This document shows positions 2,339 to 60,120 of a stretch of DNA of 64,000 bases, piece by piece (the first letter of the stretch is position 1; each line of letters starts with the position of its first letter). Position numbers and translations under genes: made by a program. Source of the DNA: Caulobacter zeae (lineage in GTDB: Bacteria; Pseudomonadota; Alphaproteobacteria; Caulobacterales; Caulobacteraceae); NCBI RefSeq assembly GCF_002858925.1, contig NZ_PJRS01000010.1, positions 62,001 to 126,000 on the forward strand, written 5' to 3'. The notes beneath the pieces are model-generated. The model was not told where the DNA came from and did no database searches. It saw only the letters and a program-made list of their open reading frames with translations.

Positions 2339-3643
2339 ATGGCCATCCCCCGTCCCCTCGTTCTCTCCGAGGGCGAAACCGTTTCGCTGCGCTCGCGACC
2401 GTCCAGCGGCAGCGCCGCGGGCCTTCTAGCGCTGTCCTTGTCCGATCCCCTGATCGCCGAGTTCTTCCGTGGCGGCTACGCCTCGGCTTCGGGCGCGACG
2501 GTGAACGTCGAGACCGCGCTGCGTAACCCGGCGATGTTCCGGGCGCTGAGCCTGATTTCCTACGCGATCGGGATGCTGCCTTTCCAGGTGATCGACGAGA
2601 CCACCAAGGAGAAGGCGACGGGCCATGCGCTCTATCGGCTCCTGCACAGGGAGCCCAACGGCTGGCAGACGGCGTTCGACTTCCGGTCGCTGATGCAGCT
2701 CCGAGCGCTGGTCTACGGCGATGCCTACGCCCTGATCGTCCGCAGCTATCAGGTGCGCAGCCGTCGAAGCGAGCCGGTGCGGCTGATCCCGCTCAATCCA
2801 GATTGGGTGAAGCCAGTGCAGGCCGACGACTGGTCGGTTACCTACGAGTACTCCCCGCCGAAAGGCGGACGCCGCGTCTTCGCCGCCAGCGAAATCTTCC
2901 ACCTGCGAGGTCTGTCGCTCGACGGCTTCCGCGGCCTTTCGCTGGTCCGGCAGGCGCGCGAGGCGATCGGCCTGGCGATCAGCGCCGAGCTGGCCTCCGC
3001 TCGACTGTTCAAGAACGGCGCGTTCGTTTCGGGGGTGCTGGAGCATCCAGGATCGCTGTCGGAGACGGCTTACGGCCGCCTGAAGGAGAGCCTTTCCGAG
3101 AAGGAAGGCGCCGACAACGCCTGGCAAAGCATGATCCTCGAGGAGGGGATGAAGTGGGGTGCGGTCGGCTCCACCGCTCGCGACGCCGAGCTGGCCGCCT
3201 TCCGCAAGATGCAGGTCGAGGAAATCGCCCGGGTCACGGGCGTACCGCGCCCGCTGCTGATGGTGGATGAGACGTCGTGGGGCTCGGGCGTCACGGCGCT
3301 TGGCCAGTTCTTCGTCCAGTACGCCCTGAACCCCTGGTTCGAGGCCTGGCAGCAGGCCGCTGAGCGCTCGATGCTGGCAGACGCCGAGAAGGATCGCTTC
3401 TCCATCAAGTTCAACCCGAACGCCCTGCTGCGGGGCTCGGTGAAGGATCAGGGCGAGTTCTTCGCCAAGGCCCTCGGGGCCGGCGGCGCCCCCGGCTGGA
3501 TGACGCAAAACGAGGTTCGCGACCTCAACGACCTACCCGCCCGCGACGGCGGCGACAAGCTCAACCCGGGCTCTCAAGCCAAGCCCGCCAGCCAACCGCA
3601 AGAGGACGCCGATGAGCCGCCTGCCGCTGCGAATTCACGCTAG
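2339..3643 (+). CDS. Phage portal protein (HK97 type)
   Basis: This 434-residue protein has the hallmarks of HK97-family portals. There is an N-terminal segment on aromatic/Ala-rich sequence, the conserved VETALRNPAMFRALSLIS region, and HALYRLLHREPNGWQTAFDF. In the second half comes the ARVTGVPRPLLMVDETSWGS motif followed by the FNPNALLRG stretch near the C-terminus. Portals form the dodecameric ring at one capsid vertex that docks terminase and the head-tail connector. A GAGG ribosome-binding site lies 6-9 bases before the ATG. The last 32 bases overlap the start of the prohead protease gene, which is common in this gene order. Confidence 0.95.
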   Translation: MAIPRPLVLSEGETVSLRSRPSSGSAAGLLALSLSDPLIAEFFRGGYASASGATVNVETALRNPAMFRALSLISYAIGMLPFQVIDETTKEKATGHALYRLLHREPNGWQTAFDFRSLMQLRALVYGDAYALIVRSYQVRSRRSEPVRLIPLNPDWVKPVQADDWSVTYEYSPPKGGRRVFAASEIFHLRGLSLDGFRGLSLVRQAREAIGLAISAELASARLFKNGAFVSGVLEHPGSLSETAYGRLKESLSEKEGADNAWQSMILEEGMKWGAVGSTARDAELAAFRKMQVEEIARVTGVPRPLLMVDETSWGSGVTALGQFFVQYALNPWFEAWQQAAERSMLADAEKDRFSIKFNPNALLRGSVKDQGEFFAKALGAGGAPGWMTQNEVRDLNDLPARDGGDKLNPGSQAKPASQPQEDADEPPAAANSR

Positions 3644-55251: not shown

Positions 55252-55328
55252 GCGCCCGTAGCTCAGCTGGATAGAGCATCAGACTACGAATCTGAGGGTC
55301 GGACGTTCGAATCGTTCCGGGCGCGCCA
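55252..55328 (+). tRNA. tRNA-Arg(ACG), plus-strand copy (island attachment site)
   Basis: Acceptor GCGCCCG/CGGGCGC, discriminator G, encoded CCA and anticodon loop CTACGAA (ACG) define this 77-base tRNA. It is identical to the minus-strand copy at 47320-47396. Its 3' half is repeated at 60073-60120, at the far end of the island, so this tRNA is the integration target. Confidence 0.96.
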
Positions 55329-55330
55329 TT
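55283..55330. repeat. attL: tRNA 3' end and flanking TT
   Basis: Bases 55283-55330 match 60073-60120 over 48 positions with a single mismatch (G at 55298 versus A at 60088). The last 32 bases are identical. This is the left end of the integrase-encoding island. Confidence 0.85.
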
Positions 55331-55392: not shown

Positions 55393-55402
55393 TTAGTACG
55401 GG
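55393..55402 (+). repeat. TTAGTACGGG repeat, possible integrase arm site (left)
   Basis: The 10-mer TTAGTACGGG near the left end recurs in the same orientation at 59911-59920 near the right end. Short repeats inside both ends are typical integrase arm-binding sites, but the match could be chance. Confidence 0.25.
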
Positions 55403-55508
55403 TTTTAGTCCGGGGCGACGATCCTGCACGCGCCATCCCGCCGCCACCGCATCCCATCCTCCGCACTCCGACAGGTTGTCGCTCGGCCCTGTCCGAATCG
55501 AAATCCTC

Positions 55509-55904
55509 CTATGGAGCCGGTGCCCAGTGGCCTCTCTTGGCAGAGCGGGCCTCGGCTTCTTCCCTGGCATATGCGCCCTTACTGTAGCGGCGGTACTCTG
55601 TCGCAAGGCCGGATCGGATGAGCGCGGCGTTTACGTCGGGCGTTGCATCGGACCAGCAGCGGCCGACGAACCGGCCATATCGATCTCGATCGACAAAGCG
55701 GCAGCCCACCCGTCCACGCGTTAGTCGCAATAGTTCGTCCCGTGCTTCATAGGCCAAGGGCTCGGCGGGTTTCGCGCCTCGCCTGACCTCCGGCGCATCG
55801 ACGCCGAAGAGCCGGACACGTTCCTGGCCGCATCGCAGCGTATCTCCGTCGTGCACGGCTGGAGACGTACAGGCGATGATTGCAGCGGCGAGCTGGACGA
55901 GCAT
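55509..55904 (-). CDS. SNase-like thermonuclease, island copy
   Basis: This 131-residue protein repeats the motifs of the prophage nuclease: VHDGDTLRCGQERVRLFGVD, AYEARDELLRLTRG, DRDRYGRFVGRCW and YRRYSKGAYAREEAEA. It starts with a short hydrophobic segment (MLVQLAAAIIAC). The two proteins are highly similar across most of their length, so this cargo is shared between two unrelated mobile elements at distant sites. Its stop faces the tRNA end of the island. Confidence 0.85.
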   Translation of the reverse strand: MLVQLAAAIIACTSPAVHDGDTLRCGQERVRLFGVDAPEVRRGAKPAEPLAYEARDELLRLTRGRVGCRFVDRDRYGRFVGRCWSDATPDVNAALIRSGLATEYRRYSKGAYAREEAEARSAKRGHWAPAP

Positions 55905-56075: not shown

Positions 56076-56588
56076 TTGAAGCCAACCTTCTCCAACGTCA
56101 GTGCGTTCGACAATTGCATTGCCGCGGTCAAGGCATGCGATCTCTTCCTAGGCATCATCACGCCCAAGTATGGCTCGGGCCGCGACGGGGACGGGATCTC
56201 GATCACGCATCAGGAACTGCTGACGGCGATCGAGGAGAACAAGCCGCGCTGGCTTCTGGCTCACGACCACGTTGTCTTCGCCCGCAAGCTGCTGGCCAGG
56301 ATGGGCTATGATACAGCCGAGAAGCGCGCGCAGTCGCCCTTCAAGCCGGGCGGGTCGGTGATGGACGACCTGCGCGTCATCGACATGTACGAGGCCGCCA
56401 CGCGCGAGGACATCCAATTGAAGGACCGCACGGGCAACTGGGTGCAGAAGTTCGTCAACGGCGAGGACGCGCTGCGCTACGCCACCGCTCAGTTCTACCG
56501 CTTCCAGGAGGTCCGTAGGTTCCTTGACGAACACCTCGCCGATGTAGACCGCGTCCGGGCCCGCGTGCAGGAGGACCTGCAGCGATGA
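56076..56588 (+). CDS. DUF4062-type protein, N-terminally truncated
   Basis: From a TTG start the 170-residue frame shows NVSAFDNCIAAVKACDLFLG and a KYGSG motif, then SITHQELLTAI and RWLLAHDHVVFARKL, the DUF4062 pattern. The family normally has a further N-terminal part with a VFISS-like strand, which is missing. An in-frame stop lies at 56037-56039, so either the gene is broken or a nearby upstream start was lost. The stop overlaps the next ATG (ATGA). DUF4062 proteins are often found in bacterial conflict contexts, but their exact role is unknown. Confidence 0.65.
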   Translation: MKPTFSNVSAFDNCIAAVKACDLFLGIITPKYGSGRDGDGISITHQELLTAIEENKPRWLLAHDHVVFARKLLARMGYDTAEKRAQSPFKPGGSVMDDLRVIDMYEAATREDIQLKDRTGNWVQKFVNGEDALRYATAQFYRFQEVRRFLDEHLADVDRVRARVQEDLQR

Positions 56589-58021
56589 TCTTCGCCGATA
56601 TCCGAGCCCAGATCGACGAGGGAGAAGGCCCGCTGGCGGCCTTCGCGCCCCATGCGGCCGACAAGGCCGGCCTTGCGGCCTTGGTCTGCGGCTTTCTCAA
56701 CACGCGCGGCGGCGTCGTCTTCGTCGGCGTCGACGCCGACGGCTCGATCCTGGGCGTGCCTAGCGCCAACATCATGCGCGCTGAGCTGGAGACCTACCTT
56801 CAGAACGCCATCACGCCGACGGCGCTTTTCACCCTGAGTGTCGATGTCGAAGGCGATGTCTCGATCATCACCATCGAGGCCCCGCAAGGACGCGACAAGC
56901 CCTATGTCGTTGACGGCAAGATCTGGGTGCGATCGGGCCGCCGCACGCTCCCGGCCACGTCGGACGCTCTTCGCGAGCTGGCTCAGGTCCGCTCCGTCGA
57001 AGCTGCGCGCTGGGAGCGGCGTCCCTCGGTCGGGCTGGAGGACGAGGACCTCGTCGAGCGGGAAATCCGCGCCACGGTCGAAGACGCCCGCAGCTCGGAC
57101 CGCTACGCCTTCACGGGGGAGGAAGACACCTTCACGGTCCTGCGCCAGTTGGGCATGGTGGTTTCAGGCGGCCTGACCCAGGCCTGCGACGTGGTCTTCG
57201 CCGCAAAGCCCGCCATGCGCCATCCCCAATGCCGCGTGCGGTTCGTCCAGTACGCCTCGGACAAGACCGGCGCGGCCTTTCTGGACAACCAGGTGTTCGA
57301 AGGCCCGCTCGTCCAGGTCTTTAACCGCCTGTTCGACAAGGTCGGCGCTCACGTGCGAATCCAGGCCCGCTTCGGCGGGGACGGCCACGGCCGCGAGGAT
57401 CGTCCCAACTATTCCCAGGACGCCCTGCGCGAAGGCCTGGTCAACGCTCTGGCCCACCGCGACTATGCGAGCTTCTCCGGCGGCGTGGCGGTTTCGGTCT
57501 ATCCGGACCGCATCGAGATCTGGAACTCTGGTCAGCTTCCGGCGGGGCTCAAGGTCGCCGACCTCTTAAGGCCTCACCCCTCAATCCCCACCAATCCGGA
57601 CATAGCCCACGTTCTCTATCTTCGCCGGCTGATGGAACGGATCGGTCGCGGCACCCAGAAGATCCTGGCGGCCTGCACCGAGCTTGGGGCACCAGCCCCG
57701 AGCTGGAAGGTCGCCTCGACGGGCGTGACCCTAACGATTTTCGCCGCCGACGCGCCGAGGAAGGCGTCTCAGCCAAAGCCGACTCTGGCCAAGCCGATCG
57801 GGGCTGCGGCGACCGCGACGGCGCTTAATGAGCGCCAGGGCGCGACCCTGGCCCAGCTTCGGCCGGGCGACTCCATTCGCTTGCCCGAGTACATGGATCA
57901 GCATGGCGTGTCCGAGCGCCAGGCTCGTCGCGACCTTGCCGGGCTGACCGAGCGTGGTTTCCTTGTCCGCAAGGGCAAGGGACCGGCCACCGACTACCAG
58001 CGCAGCGACAAGACGATCTAG
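56585..58021 (+). CDS. AlbA_2/HATPase-like regulator (Schlafen-type ATPase)
   Basis: The 478-residue protein has an N-terminal AlbA_2 domain (NTRGGVVFVGVDADGSILGV, VRSGRRTLPA), a middle HATPase-like section (EGLVNALAHRDYASFSGGVA, YPDRIEIWNSGQLP, IGRGTQKI) and a C-terminal winged-helix end (HGVSERQARRDLAGLTERGF). This matches the ATP-binding regulators related to Schlafen that often pair with an upstream partner gene. Start coupling with the DUF4062 gene suggests a two-gene unit, possibly defence or plasticity related. The nine TCCGGCCA repeats lie right after it. Confidence 0.8.
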   Translation: MIFADIRAQIDEGEGPLAAFAPHAADKAGLAALVCGFLNTRGGVVFVGVDADGSILGVPSANIMRAELETYLQNAITPTALFTLSVDVEGDVSIITIEAPQGRDKPYVVDGKIWVRSGRRTLPATSDALRELAQVRSVEAARWERRPSVGLEDEDLVEREIRATVEDARSSDRYAFTGEEDTFTVLRQLGMVVSGGLTQACDVVFAAKPAMRHPQCRVRFVQYASDKTGAAFLDNQVFEGPLVQVFNRLFDKVGAHVRIQARFGGDGHGREDRPNYSQDALREGLVNALAHRDYASFSGGVAVSVYPDRIEIWNSGQLPAGLKVADLLRPHPSIPTNPDIAHVLYLRRLMERIGRGTQKILAACTELGAPAPSWKVASTGVTLTIFAADAPRKASQPKPTLAKPIGAAATATALNERQGATLAQLRPGDSIRLPEYMDQHGVSERQARRDLAGLTERGFLVRKGKGPATDYQRSDKTI

Positions 58022-58330
58022 GAATCCGGCCAAGGCCCGCGAATCCGGCCACGGGTACTGGATTGGGTTGTGGCCGGATTAGTCTTAGGCGCGTGCTGGT
58101 CCCAAAACTCATAAACTGTTGTGCGCACAAAGAGATTCGAGTCTCGGGCTATCGCGGATCCGGCCAAAACTGAGAATCCGGCCAAATCCGGCCAAATCCG
58201 GCCAGCAACATGCAAACGCGTCTGTTCACTGCTTCGGGCGAAATGTTTGCGGCTGTAAGTCTCAGTTTTTCCTAGTATTCCCGCAAATTTGTCTAGCTGC
58301 CCGTCAGCAAGTCCGGCCAGATCCGGCCAT
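58022..58330. repeat. Cluster of nine TCCGGCCA repeats
   Basis: Eight direct copies occur at 58025, 58044, 58159, 58177, 58187, 58197, 58312 and 58322, plus one inverted copy at 58071 (TGGCCGGA). Several are spaced exactly 10 bases apart (58177, 58187, 58197 and 58312, 58322), one helical turn. The array fills much of the 381-base gene-free gap between the two convergent genes. It may be a binding platform for an island-encoded protein, for example for control of excision or replication. No gene lies here. Confidence 0.75.
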
Positions 58331-58402: not shown

Positions 58403-59869
58403 TCAGCCCAAGGCGTGCGCCGCCTCCCTCGCCCACACCGCATCGACGAGGAGGCTGGTGCCGGCGCGGTTCTTCGTCGGCGGCCGGCCAACGCGCCGCC
58501 GAGGCTTGCCTTCCACTGTGAGCGGGTTGGTCTCGCAGTAGGTCTTGGTTCGCCGATCCGGCGGCGTGGGGTCGCGCAGCGGGTCGCCGATCTTCCGCGA
58601 CGGCAGCGTAGGCCAGCGCGCGCCGTCGCCACCCGACTGGGCGATGACGAGCCGGGAAATCTCCTCCTGAGCCTTGCGCAGGTGGCCGACGAGGAGCTTG
58701 GCGCGGGTGATGTAGCCGGCGTTCACGCCTGGCAGGCTGTGGTTCATCAGCAGGTGGCAGTCCAATTCGGAGAGGCCCGCCGCCTGCCCGACGGTCCGAT
58801 AGGTCTGGCGAAGGTCATTGCCGAACTTGCAGAGAACCTGGCGCTGTTCGCGGTGCACGGTCATGTGCCCCTCGCGGCTTTCGCCAGCGAAGATCCAGGT
58901 CGCCGCTTGGTCGGGAAGCAAGAAACGGCTGGCGCGCATGGCGCGGACCAGGCACCGGACCATCGCCCGCGATAGGGGGATGTCGAAGGCGCGGTCCTCG
59001 CCGCCCTTCGGGCGTGGCATGTGCAGGACGCGTTCGCGCAGGTTCAGGTGCTCGACTCGAGCCCTGAGAAGGGCGGCCGGCCGACTGCCCGACAGCAGAG
59101 TGAACAGGTGGAATTCGCGCCGGATTGGGTGGCGAAGGCGCCTGGCCTGCTCGATCCATGCTGGCAGGTCCTCCACGCCCATGGCCGTGTCCCGGCGTTT
59201 GACCACGTTCCAGTCGACCGCGAGTGTAGGGTTCTCGGGCGGCAGGTCCCGGTTGCGCTTGCGGGCGTGGTTGTAGATCGCCCGTAGCGTCCGCATCGCC
59301 CCGTTGGCGATGCCGGGTCCATTGTCGTGCGTGATCTTGTCGTGGCGGTCGGCGACCATGCCTGGGCTCTCGCCCAATTCGCTTAGCGGCTTGTCGAGCC
59401 AGTCGGAGAACAGACGCTCGACGTGGTCGCCATAGCCTTCGATGGTCGCCTCGCTACGACCCTTCCGTTCCATATGCGACGACCGGTAGCGCGCCCAGGC
59501 CTGCCTCAAGGTCACGCCCTTGCCGCCTTCGGCTCCGCCGACGGCGGGGGCAGCTGCGGCCTCCGCGGCTACCTTGGCCTTGGACTCTTCGCGGTGTAAC
59601 TCGCCGCTGAGGATCCTGGCCAGCGTTCCCTTGGCGGCGATCCTGGCCTCGCGCACGGACATCTCGTCGACGGCGCCAATCGCTAGGCGCTTTCCCTTCC
59701 GCTGGCCGTCCTGCCAGAACTCGGCCTGGACGACGTATGTCTTCTTGCGGACGCCCACGACGACGAAGAAGCCGCGAAGGTCGCGGTCGCGGACCATGTA
59801 CTGGCCCTTGTGGGCCAGGGGGAGCTGGGCGAGCGCCCGGTCCGAGAACGAAAACGTTTGGCTGCTCAT
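58403..59869 (-). CDS. int: Tyrosine-type integrase of the island
   Basis: The 488-residue integrase has an arm-binding DUF4102-like N-terminus (MVRDRDLRGFFVVVGVRKKT, SVREARIAAKGTLARI), a SAM-like core-binding region (about 120-210) and a catalytic domain. Arg263 (SGSRPAALLR), Lys288 (RPKGG), Arg354 (NDLRQTY), His377 (LLMNH) and Tyr386 (NAGYIT) make the active set. The N in NDLRQTY replaces the usual His of box II, a common variant. It would recombine attL and attR at the tRNA-Arg 3' end. The C-terminal 60 residues are Arg/Pro-rich and less conserved. Confidence 0.9.
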   Translation of the reverse strand: MSSQTFSFSDRALAQLPLAHKGQYMVRDRDLRGFFVVVGVRKKTYVVQAEFWQDGQRKGKRLAIGAVDEMSVREARIAAKGTLARILSGELHREESKAKVAAEAAAAPAVGGAEGGKGVTLRQAWARYRSSHMERKGRSEATIEGYGDHVERLFSDWLDKPLSELGESPGMVADRHDKITHDNGPGIANGAMRTLRAIYNHARKRNRDLPPENPTLAVDWNVVKRRDTAMGVEDLPAWIEQARRLRHPIRREFHLFTLLSGSRPAALLRARVEHLNLRERVLHMPRPKGGEDRAFDIPLSRAMVRCLVRAMRASRFLLPDQAATWIFAGESREGHMTVHREQRQVLCKFGNDLRQTYRTVGQAAGLSELDCHLLMNHSLPGVNAGYITRAKLLVGHLRKAQEEISRLVIAQSGGDGARWPTLPSRKIGDPLRDPTPPDRRTKTYCETNPLTVEGKPRRRVGRPPTKNRAGTSLLVDAVWAREAAHALG

Positions 59870-59910: not shown

Positions 59911-59920
59911 TTAGTACGGG
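59911..59920 (+). repeat. TTAGTACGGG repeat, possible integrase arm site (right)
   Basis: This is the second copy of the 10-mer in the same orientation as at 55393-55402. It lies about 150 bases inside attR. Additional TGTGGCG copies are scattered in 59870-60072, the gene-free gap between integrase and attR, which otherwise shows no gene. Confidence 0.25.
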
Positions 59921-60072
59921 CGCTACTACGGGGTGGCGGCCATAAAAGTCTAAATCTCGACCTGCGCAGCTATCCTATCACATCCGATGCTCCGGATGGA
60001 ATATACAACAAGTACAATATGTTTCGGGATGTGGCGTACTGTGGCGTAAATCGAAGACGAATACTTAATGAT

Positions 60073-60120
60073 ACTACGAATCTGAGGATCGGACGTTCGA
60101 ATCGTTCCGGGCGCGCCATT
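60073..60120. repeat. attR: copy of tRNA-Arg 3' end
   Basis: This 48-base block repeats the tRNA-Arg(ACG) 3' half and CCA plus TT. The gap from 59870 to 60192 (about 320 bases) contains no gene; it is AT-richer and holds the attachment repeat and possible arm sites. The integrase start lies 203 bases inside this end. Confidence 0.85.

Follow-up and report, generated by a model that had tools for sequence, protein, structure and literature searches.

The window, i.e. the whole stretch of 64,000 nucleotides of Caulobacter zeae DNA analysed here, carries a small island integrated at a tRNA-Arg(ACG) gene (Table 1). Between the two attachment repeats, its cargo consists of genes encoding a staphylococcal-nuclease homologue, a DUF4062 protein, a protein combining AlbA_2, HATPase_c_4 and winged-helix domains (hereafter the ATPase gene) and a tyrosine integrase. 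Pairs of TAGTACGGG-like repeats (55394/55406 and 59912/59924), which are candidate arm-type sites, flank both island cores. Compared at the nucleotide level with plasmids and phages, the island as a whole gave short matches only. As the earlier note had stated, the ATPase gene and the integrase gene, which are convergent, border a gap that contains an array of short repeats.

Table 1. Features of the island and of the repeat array (positions in the window)
Feature	Position	Strand	Basis
tRNA-Arg(ACG), integration target of the island	55252..55328	+	53-nt repeat of tRNA 3' end
Attachment repeat, left copy	55278..55330	+	53-nt copy of tRNA-Arg(ACG) 3' end
Candidate integrase arm-type direct repeats, left end	55394..55414	+	repeat search
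SNase (PF00565), staphylococcal-nuclease homologue	55509..55904	-	Pfam
DUF4062 gene, truncated: no codons for ortholog residues 1-46	56076..56588	+	comparison with L047
AlbA_2 + HATPase_c_4 + winged-helix protein, 478 aa	56585..58021	+	Pfam, model, Foldseek match 3lmm
C-terminal winged helix (residues 416-473), proposed array reader	57830..58003	+	model blocks, pLDDT 74-90
Array part 1: two direct units and one inverted	58023..58080	.	unit scan
Array part 2: four direct units, three at 10-bp spacing	58157..58204	+	unit scan
Spacer, 107 nt, GC 0.50 (gene 0.67)	58205..58311	.	no RNA-fold or sigma-70 signal
Array part 3: two direct units at 10-bp spacing	58310..58329	+	unit scan
Tyrosine integrase with arm DNA-binding domain, apparently not the partner of the array	58403..59869	-	Pfam, sister comparison
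Candidate integrase arm-type direct repeats, right end	59912..59932	+	repeat search
Attachment repeat, right copy, 94%	60068..60120	+	recurrence of left 53-nt repeat

A scan of the window located all nine exact TCCGGCCA sites previously claimed, eight direct and one inverted, at 58025-58329; they start at 58025, 58044, 58071 (minus strand), 58159, 58177, 58187, 58197, 58312 and 58322. The exact 10-base spacing reported for some of them was also recovered, in two runs (58177/58187/58197 and 58312/58322). The whole window contains 16 copies of TCCGGCCA, compared with a mean of 5.1 and a maximum of 13 in 100 shuffles, and the seven copies found outside the array, over about 63.7 kb, correspond to 0.03 expected copies per 309 bases. 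The earlier note had named an equal density of TCCGGCCA throughout the chromosome as an observation that would speak against the array; the density in the array greatly exceeds that in the rest of the window. The tandem pair TCCGGCCANNTCCGGCCA has three matches in the 5.39-Mb genome, all of them inside the array, and AATCCGGCCA has 24, including six inside the array. An Rfam search of the array gave no match.

In the protein encoded by the ATPase gene, AlbA_2 and HATPase_c_4 exceed the Pfam cut-offs and a C-terminal winged helix-turn-helix (wHTH) is present; PF08220 (HTH_DeoR) is weak and below cut-off, and exceeds it in the Mesorhizobium relative L047 described below. The ATPase is of the GHKL type. 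The AlphaFold model (mean pLDDT 79.9) places the winged helix at residues 416-473, i.e. at the end of the protein whose codons are nearest to the array. The best solved relative retrieved by Foldseek, 3lmm, matches nearly the full length of the protein (E 2e-21), although with a TM-score of only 0.43, and is followed by Schlafen N-domains and histidine-kinase ATPases. We take 3lmm (DIP2311) to be a predicted regulator of the COG2865 type, a group for which we know of no DNA site. As modelled, the protein fits the role of a putative DNA reader.

Fourteen relatives of the ATPase gene were identified among the 84,980 species genomes searched. The closest one, from Mesorhizobium camelthorni (L047, 58% identical), has AATCCGGCCAAATCCGGCCA directly 3' of its stop codon, with a second occurrence some 120 bases further on, the unit being as in the window. 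Variant units spaced by 8-12 bp are found 3' of the stop codon in Betaproteobacteria, Planctomycetota, Dehalococcoidia, Bacteroidota and a genome from the same family as the host. The position is conserved and the units are specific to lineages: CCGGACAT-like in betaproteobacterial and related loci, CCGGACA in a planctomycete locus, ATCCGGCA in a Dehalococcoidia bacterium, TGCAGGTT in a Saprospiraceae bacterium, ATCTCGACAT in the same-family genome (L069, 40% identity), GGGCTCA at 11 bp on a Hymenobacter plasmid and a CCCGGAAGA-like unit on an Acinetobacter plasmid. In many loci, a first pair of units, spaced by 10-11 bp, lies near the stop codon and a second pair follows about 110-120 bases further on, and a unit pair, a spacer of about 104 nt and another unit pair is the usual layout; the array of the window has more exact units than the other loci of the CCGG type. 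Wherever there is enough upstream DNA and the pair is intact, a DUF4062 gene lies directly upstream of the ATPase gene, and inspection of ten loci revealed no comparable array on the upstream side of DUF4062. A protein search for close relatives at 1e-60 in 385 genomes of the class and 398 of the phylum retrieved only the host genome, and a profile search detected relatives in 8 of the 398 phylum genomes. Globally, these comparisons indicate that the array travels with the AlbA_2/HATPase_c_4/winged-helix gene, and not with the integrase, into unrelated genomes.

Tandem repeats with a period of 8-14 were scored in the 400 bases starting 20 before the stop codon, the 400 bases upstream of the ORF being used as a control. 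This score replaced an earlier k-mer score that was weak for AT-rich loci, and was applied to 96 of 119 loci, the other 23 being duplicates, truncated or too short. Among the loci in which DUF4062 was detected, seven of which are closely related betaproteobacterial ones, 14 of 15 reach p<0.05 downstream of the stop codon (8 of 15 reach p<0.01) and none of 15 reaches p<0.05 in the upstream control; in L050 and L071, which account for two of the 14 positive scores, the signal comes from other repeats than the listed unit, and L058 is not significant (p 0.096). The profile used to recognize DUF4062 missed two Legionella loci, one of them annotated as DUF4062 in its record. Among the loci without DUF4062, p<0.01 is reached by 13 of 81 downstream versus 5 of 70 upstream, the remaining 68 of the 81 scoring p>=0.01 downstream; three of the 13 (L054, L055 and L059) belong to the DUF4062-type subfamily, the partner being lost or off the contig. 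The strongest arrays in this group are 16 copies on a Streptococcus plasmid and four copies in each of L095, L086 and L140. Arrays located after the stop codon thus appear to extend beyond DUF4062 pairs.

The best reading of the array remains the phased binding array that the earlier note had proposed, whereas the two roles that it had suggested for such an array, in recombination and in replication, are not supported (see below). More precisely, the adjoining protein would recognize the array, as double-stranded DNA, through its C-terminal winged helix, a reading to which we give a probability of about 0.7. Binding by the AlbA/wHTH protein, another possibility raised by the earlier note, is strongly favoured, since in unrelated genomes the array accompanies the ATPase gene rather than the integrase; this binding, like its effect, is what we infer from the comparisons. 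At a distance of 10-11 bp, units are on the same face of the helix, which would allow several protomers to bind next to one another. The conserved spacing, together with the spacer lengths and spacer GC reported below, also speaks for this reading, as does the absence of the array beside the sister integrases. The units are more similar where the winged helices are more identical (r 0.69), and the identity of the protein core gives an equal correlation (r 0.70), the partial correlation with the winged helix being weak (0.15, p 0.012), and the HTH is therefore not singled out. If the DNA-site reading is correct, the main alternative for its function is control of the operon's own expression. 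No unit arrays were seen at the promoter of the operon itself, and ordinary autorepression would therefore lack a visible operator. Our literature search found no described binding site for the family of Schlafen-like bacterial ATPases; the array would provide this large family with a concrete DNA target and, if binding is true, the sequence downstream of each such gene would suffice for predicting sites.

The array could instead be the operator of a promoter located inside the spacer and repressed by the winged-helix protein, this promoter driving a small RNA, an antisense RNA or a downstream gene. The constant length and AT-rich composition of the spacer are in favour of this doubtful explanation. 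Indeed, despite their differing sequences, spacers measure 101-108 nt in 11 of the 17 measured loci (67-113 in the others), a count that leans towards the favoured reading because the analyst chose which gap to count as the spacer where a locus, like that of the window, has more than one; furthermore, spacer GC is lower than gene GC in 15 of 17 loci. However, none of the 17 spacers is enriched in sigma-70 promoters at p<0.05, sigma-70 being the only promoter class scored, and the spacers give no signal of RNA structure (mean z -0.60 and -0.33).

It is improbable that the array acts as an RNA element of the 3' untranslated region to which the AlbA-like domain binds. In many loci, the array begins at or inside the stop codon, as might be expected for such an element, and Schlafen-type domains can bind RNA. 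However, one unit of the window is inverted, the units display helical spacing and none of eight pairs shows RNA covariation. Furthermore, ATCCGGCA is read in the direction of the gene in L056 and as its reverse complement in L073, and the occurrence of the unit in opposite gene directions fits duplex DNA and not RNA. The RNA element was rejected on these grounds.

Even less probable is a replication origin or a partition site, i.e. iterons associated with an AT-rich region or a centromere-like site. Iterons and parC-like centromeres are made of direct repeats at 10-11 bp in two groups, an organization shared by arrays of the type found in the window, with their helical phasing and AT-richer spacer, and some relatives of the ATPase gene are carried by plasmids. 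However, most homologs are found on chromosomal or draft contigs beside varied genes, and Pfam revealed no Rep family among the island ORFs scanned, so that the iteron origin, suggested by the earlier note, was rejected for want of an adjacent replication initiator. The array also differs from parC-like sites by its lack of a ParM or ParA partner (the ATPase being of the GHKL type), by the lack of promoter signal between the repeat groups and by its location downstream of its gene, far from any identified promoter. On two Legionella plasmids (L109 and L110), the ATPase gene adjoins a ParB gene; one of the two records annotates a DUF4062 gene before the ATPase gene, and the other has one long ORF across the region.

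The link with the integrase, i.e. arm-type or enhancer sites shaping the excision of the island, was abandoned and is now highly improbable. Like arm-type sites, the array consists of short direct repeats near an integrase, here one with an arm-binding domain. Relatives of this integrase at E<=1e-40 were found in 8 of 75 genomes of the genus, including the host genome, and in all seven sister elements the same end of the tRNA lies close to the start of the integrase gene. However, the search for the array in members of the same integrase family, which the earlier note had proposed, found a TCCGGCCA array beside none of the seven sister integrases, two of which are 90-91% identical to that of the window; such an absence was what the earlier note had given as grounds for refutation. 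In these two closest sisters, homology ends at the integrase stop codon. Furthermore, the array is wrongly placed, 2.7 kb from one attachment core and 1.7 kb from the other (the right one), and it is the other direct pairs, the candidate arm repeats, that lie near the cores at both island ends. Both right-hand arm-type repeats occur in genome G154 and one of them, within one mismatch, in G206; more distant sisters carry, as judged by eye, other short direct repeats in the arm-repeat zone at the island end. On the evidence of these comparisons, the array is not an integrase feature. The seven sister islands (L040-L046) occupy the same tRNA-Arg site and have no cargo in common with the window island by nucleotide match; several of them carry different arm-like repeats, and L044 carries a different repeat with a period of about 9 bp, left of the integrase gene.

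Finally, simple tandem-repeat noise or a dispersed genomic repeat has a negligible chance of being correct: short units can expand by slippage, as the 16 copies (14 exact) of L117 may illustrate, but the position of the array is conserved across lineages, and a dispersed (REP-like) repeat was rejected since the tandem pair is restricted to the array within the genome.

What a DNA-bound ATPase protein would do may be considered in the light of its DUF4062 partner. A 2026 preprint reports DUF4062 as a TIR-like NADase involved in phage defence, Swarozyc, and describes it as one protein with a C-terminal auxiliary domain; the words 'AlbA' and 'Schlafen' are absent from its main text (PMC13174449). 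Compared with Swarozyc as described there, the loci examined here share the DUF4062 domain and, in some cases, the proximity of defence-associated genes, but DUF4062 is encoded by a separate gene beside the AlbA_2/ATPase/wHTH gene, which is followed by a DNA array. PF13271 is detected in homologs and in part in the window, where homology to the L047 ortholog starts at residue 47 (position 56082). According to this comparison, the window copy lacks a complete TIR-like domain and, because of this truncation, is probably devoid of a working effector.

Two groups of units separated by about 100 nt, with an AT-richer spacer between them, would give rise to a nucleoprotein complex, looped or wrapped, on the 3' side of the gene itself. 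Our best guess is that this locus-bound complex would store or control the protein and its DUF4062 partner, the effector being kept quiet until infection disturbs the complex. Such a role of the array as a switch is a guess. It is likewise conceivable, though unlikely, that the cis array is a required third component of widespread AlbA_2/GHKL-ATPase/wHTH systems, in which a DNA-tethered assembly would hold the TIR-like NADase inactive and fire it upon disturbance of the host DNA, or of the complex, by a phage. The array would then possibly add a cis element to the newly described DUF4062 defence and, if binding is true, the sensing step would become testable.

PADLOC and NCBIfam provided no useful model, the PADLOC matches being pAgo-type profiles. 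A search of viral contigs for the tandem-unit pattern retrieved six contigs, and the DNA examined from them contains no ATPase relative; clustered AATCCGGCCA-like repeats are present on L063 (12075-12166), L065 (4393-4421) and L066 (101-138), where no AlbA_2/ATPase relative was seen. A SIR2/STALD gene lies near L047, and type I restriction-like genes, identified by eye, lie near L053 and L059. On the Streptococcus respiraculi plasmid (L117), the tandem copies of a 10-bp unit (3423-3579) directly follow the AlbA_2/ATPase gene, with a CI/LexA-like gene upstream and an integrase gene downstream. In Lamprocystis purpurea (L059, 4695-5546), the 3' half of the ATPase gene is fused in frame to a sequence encoding an HsdR-like N-terminus, assigned by eye to type I restriction, and the array is kept.
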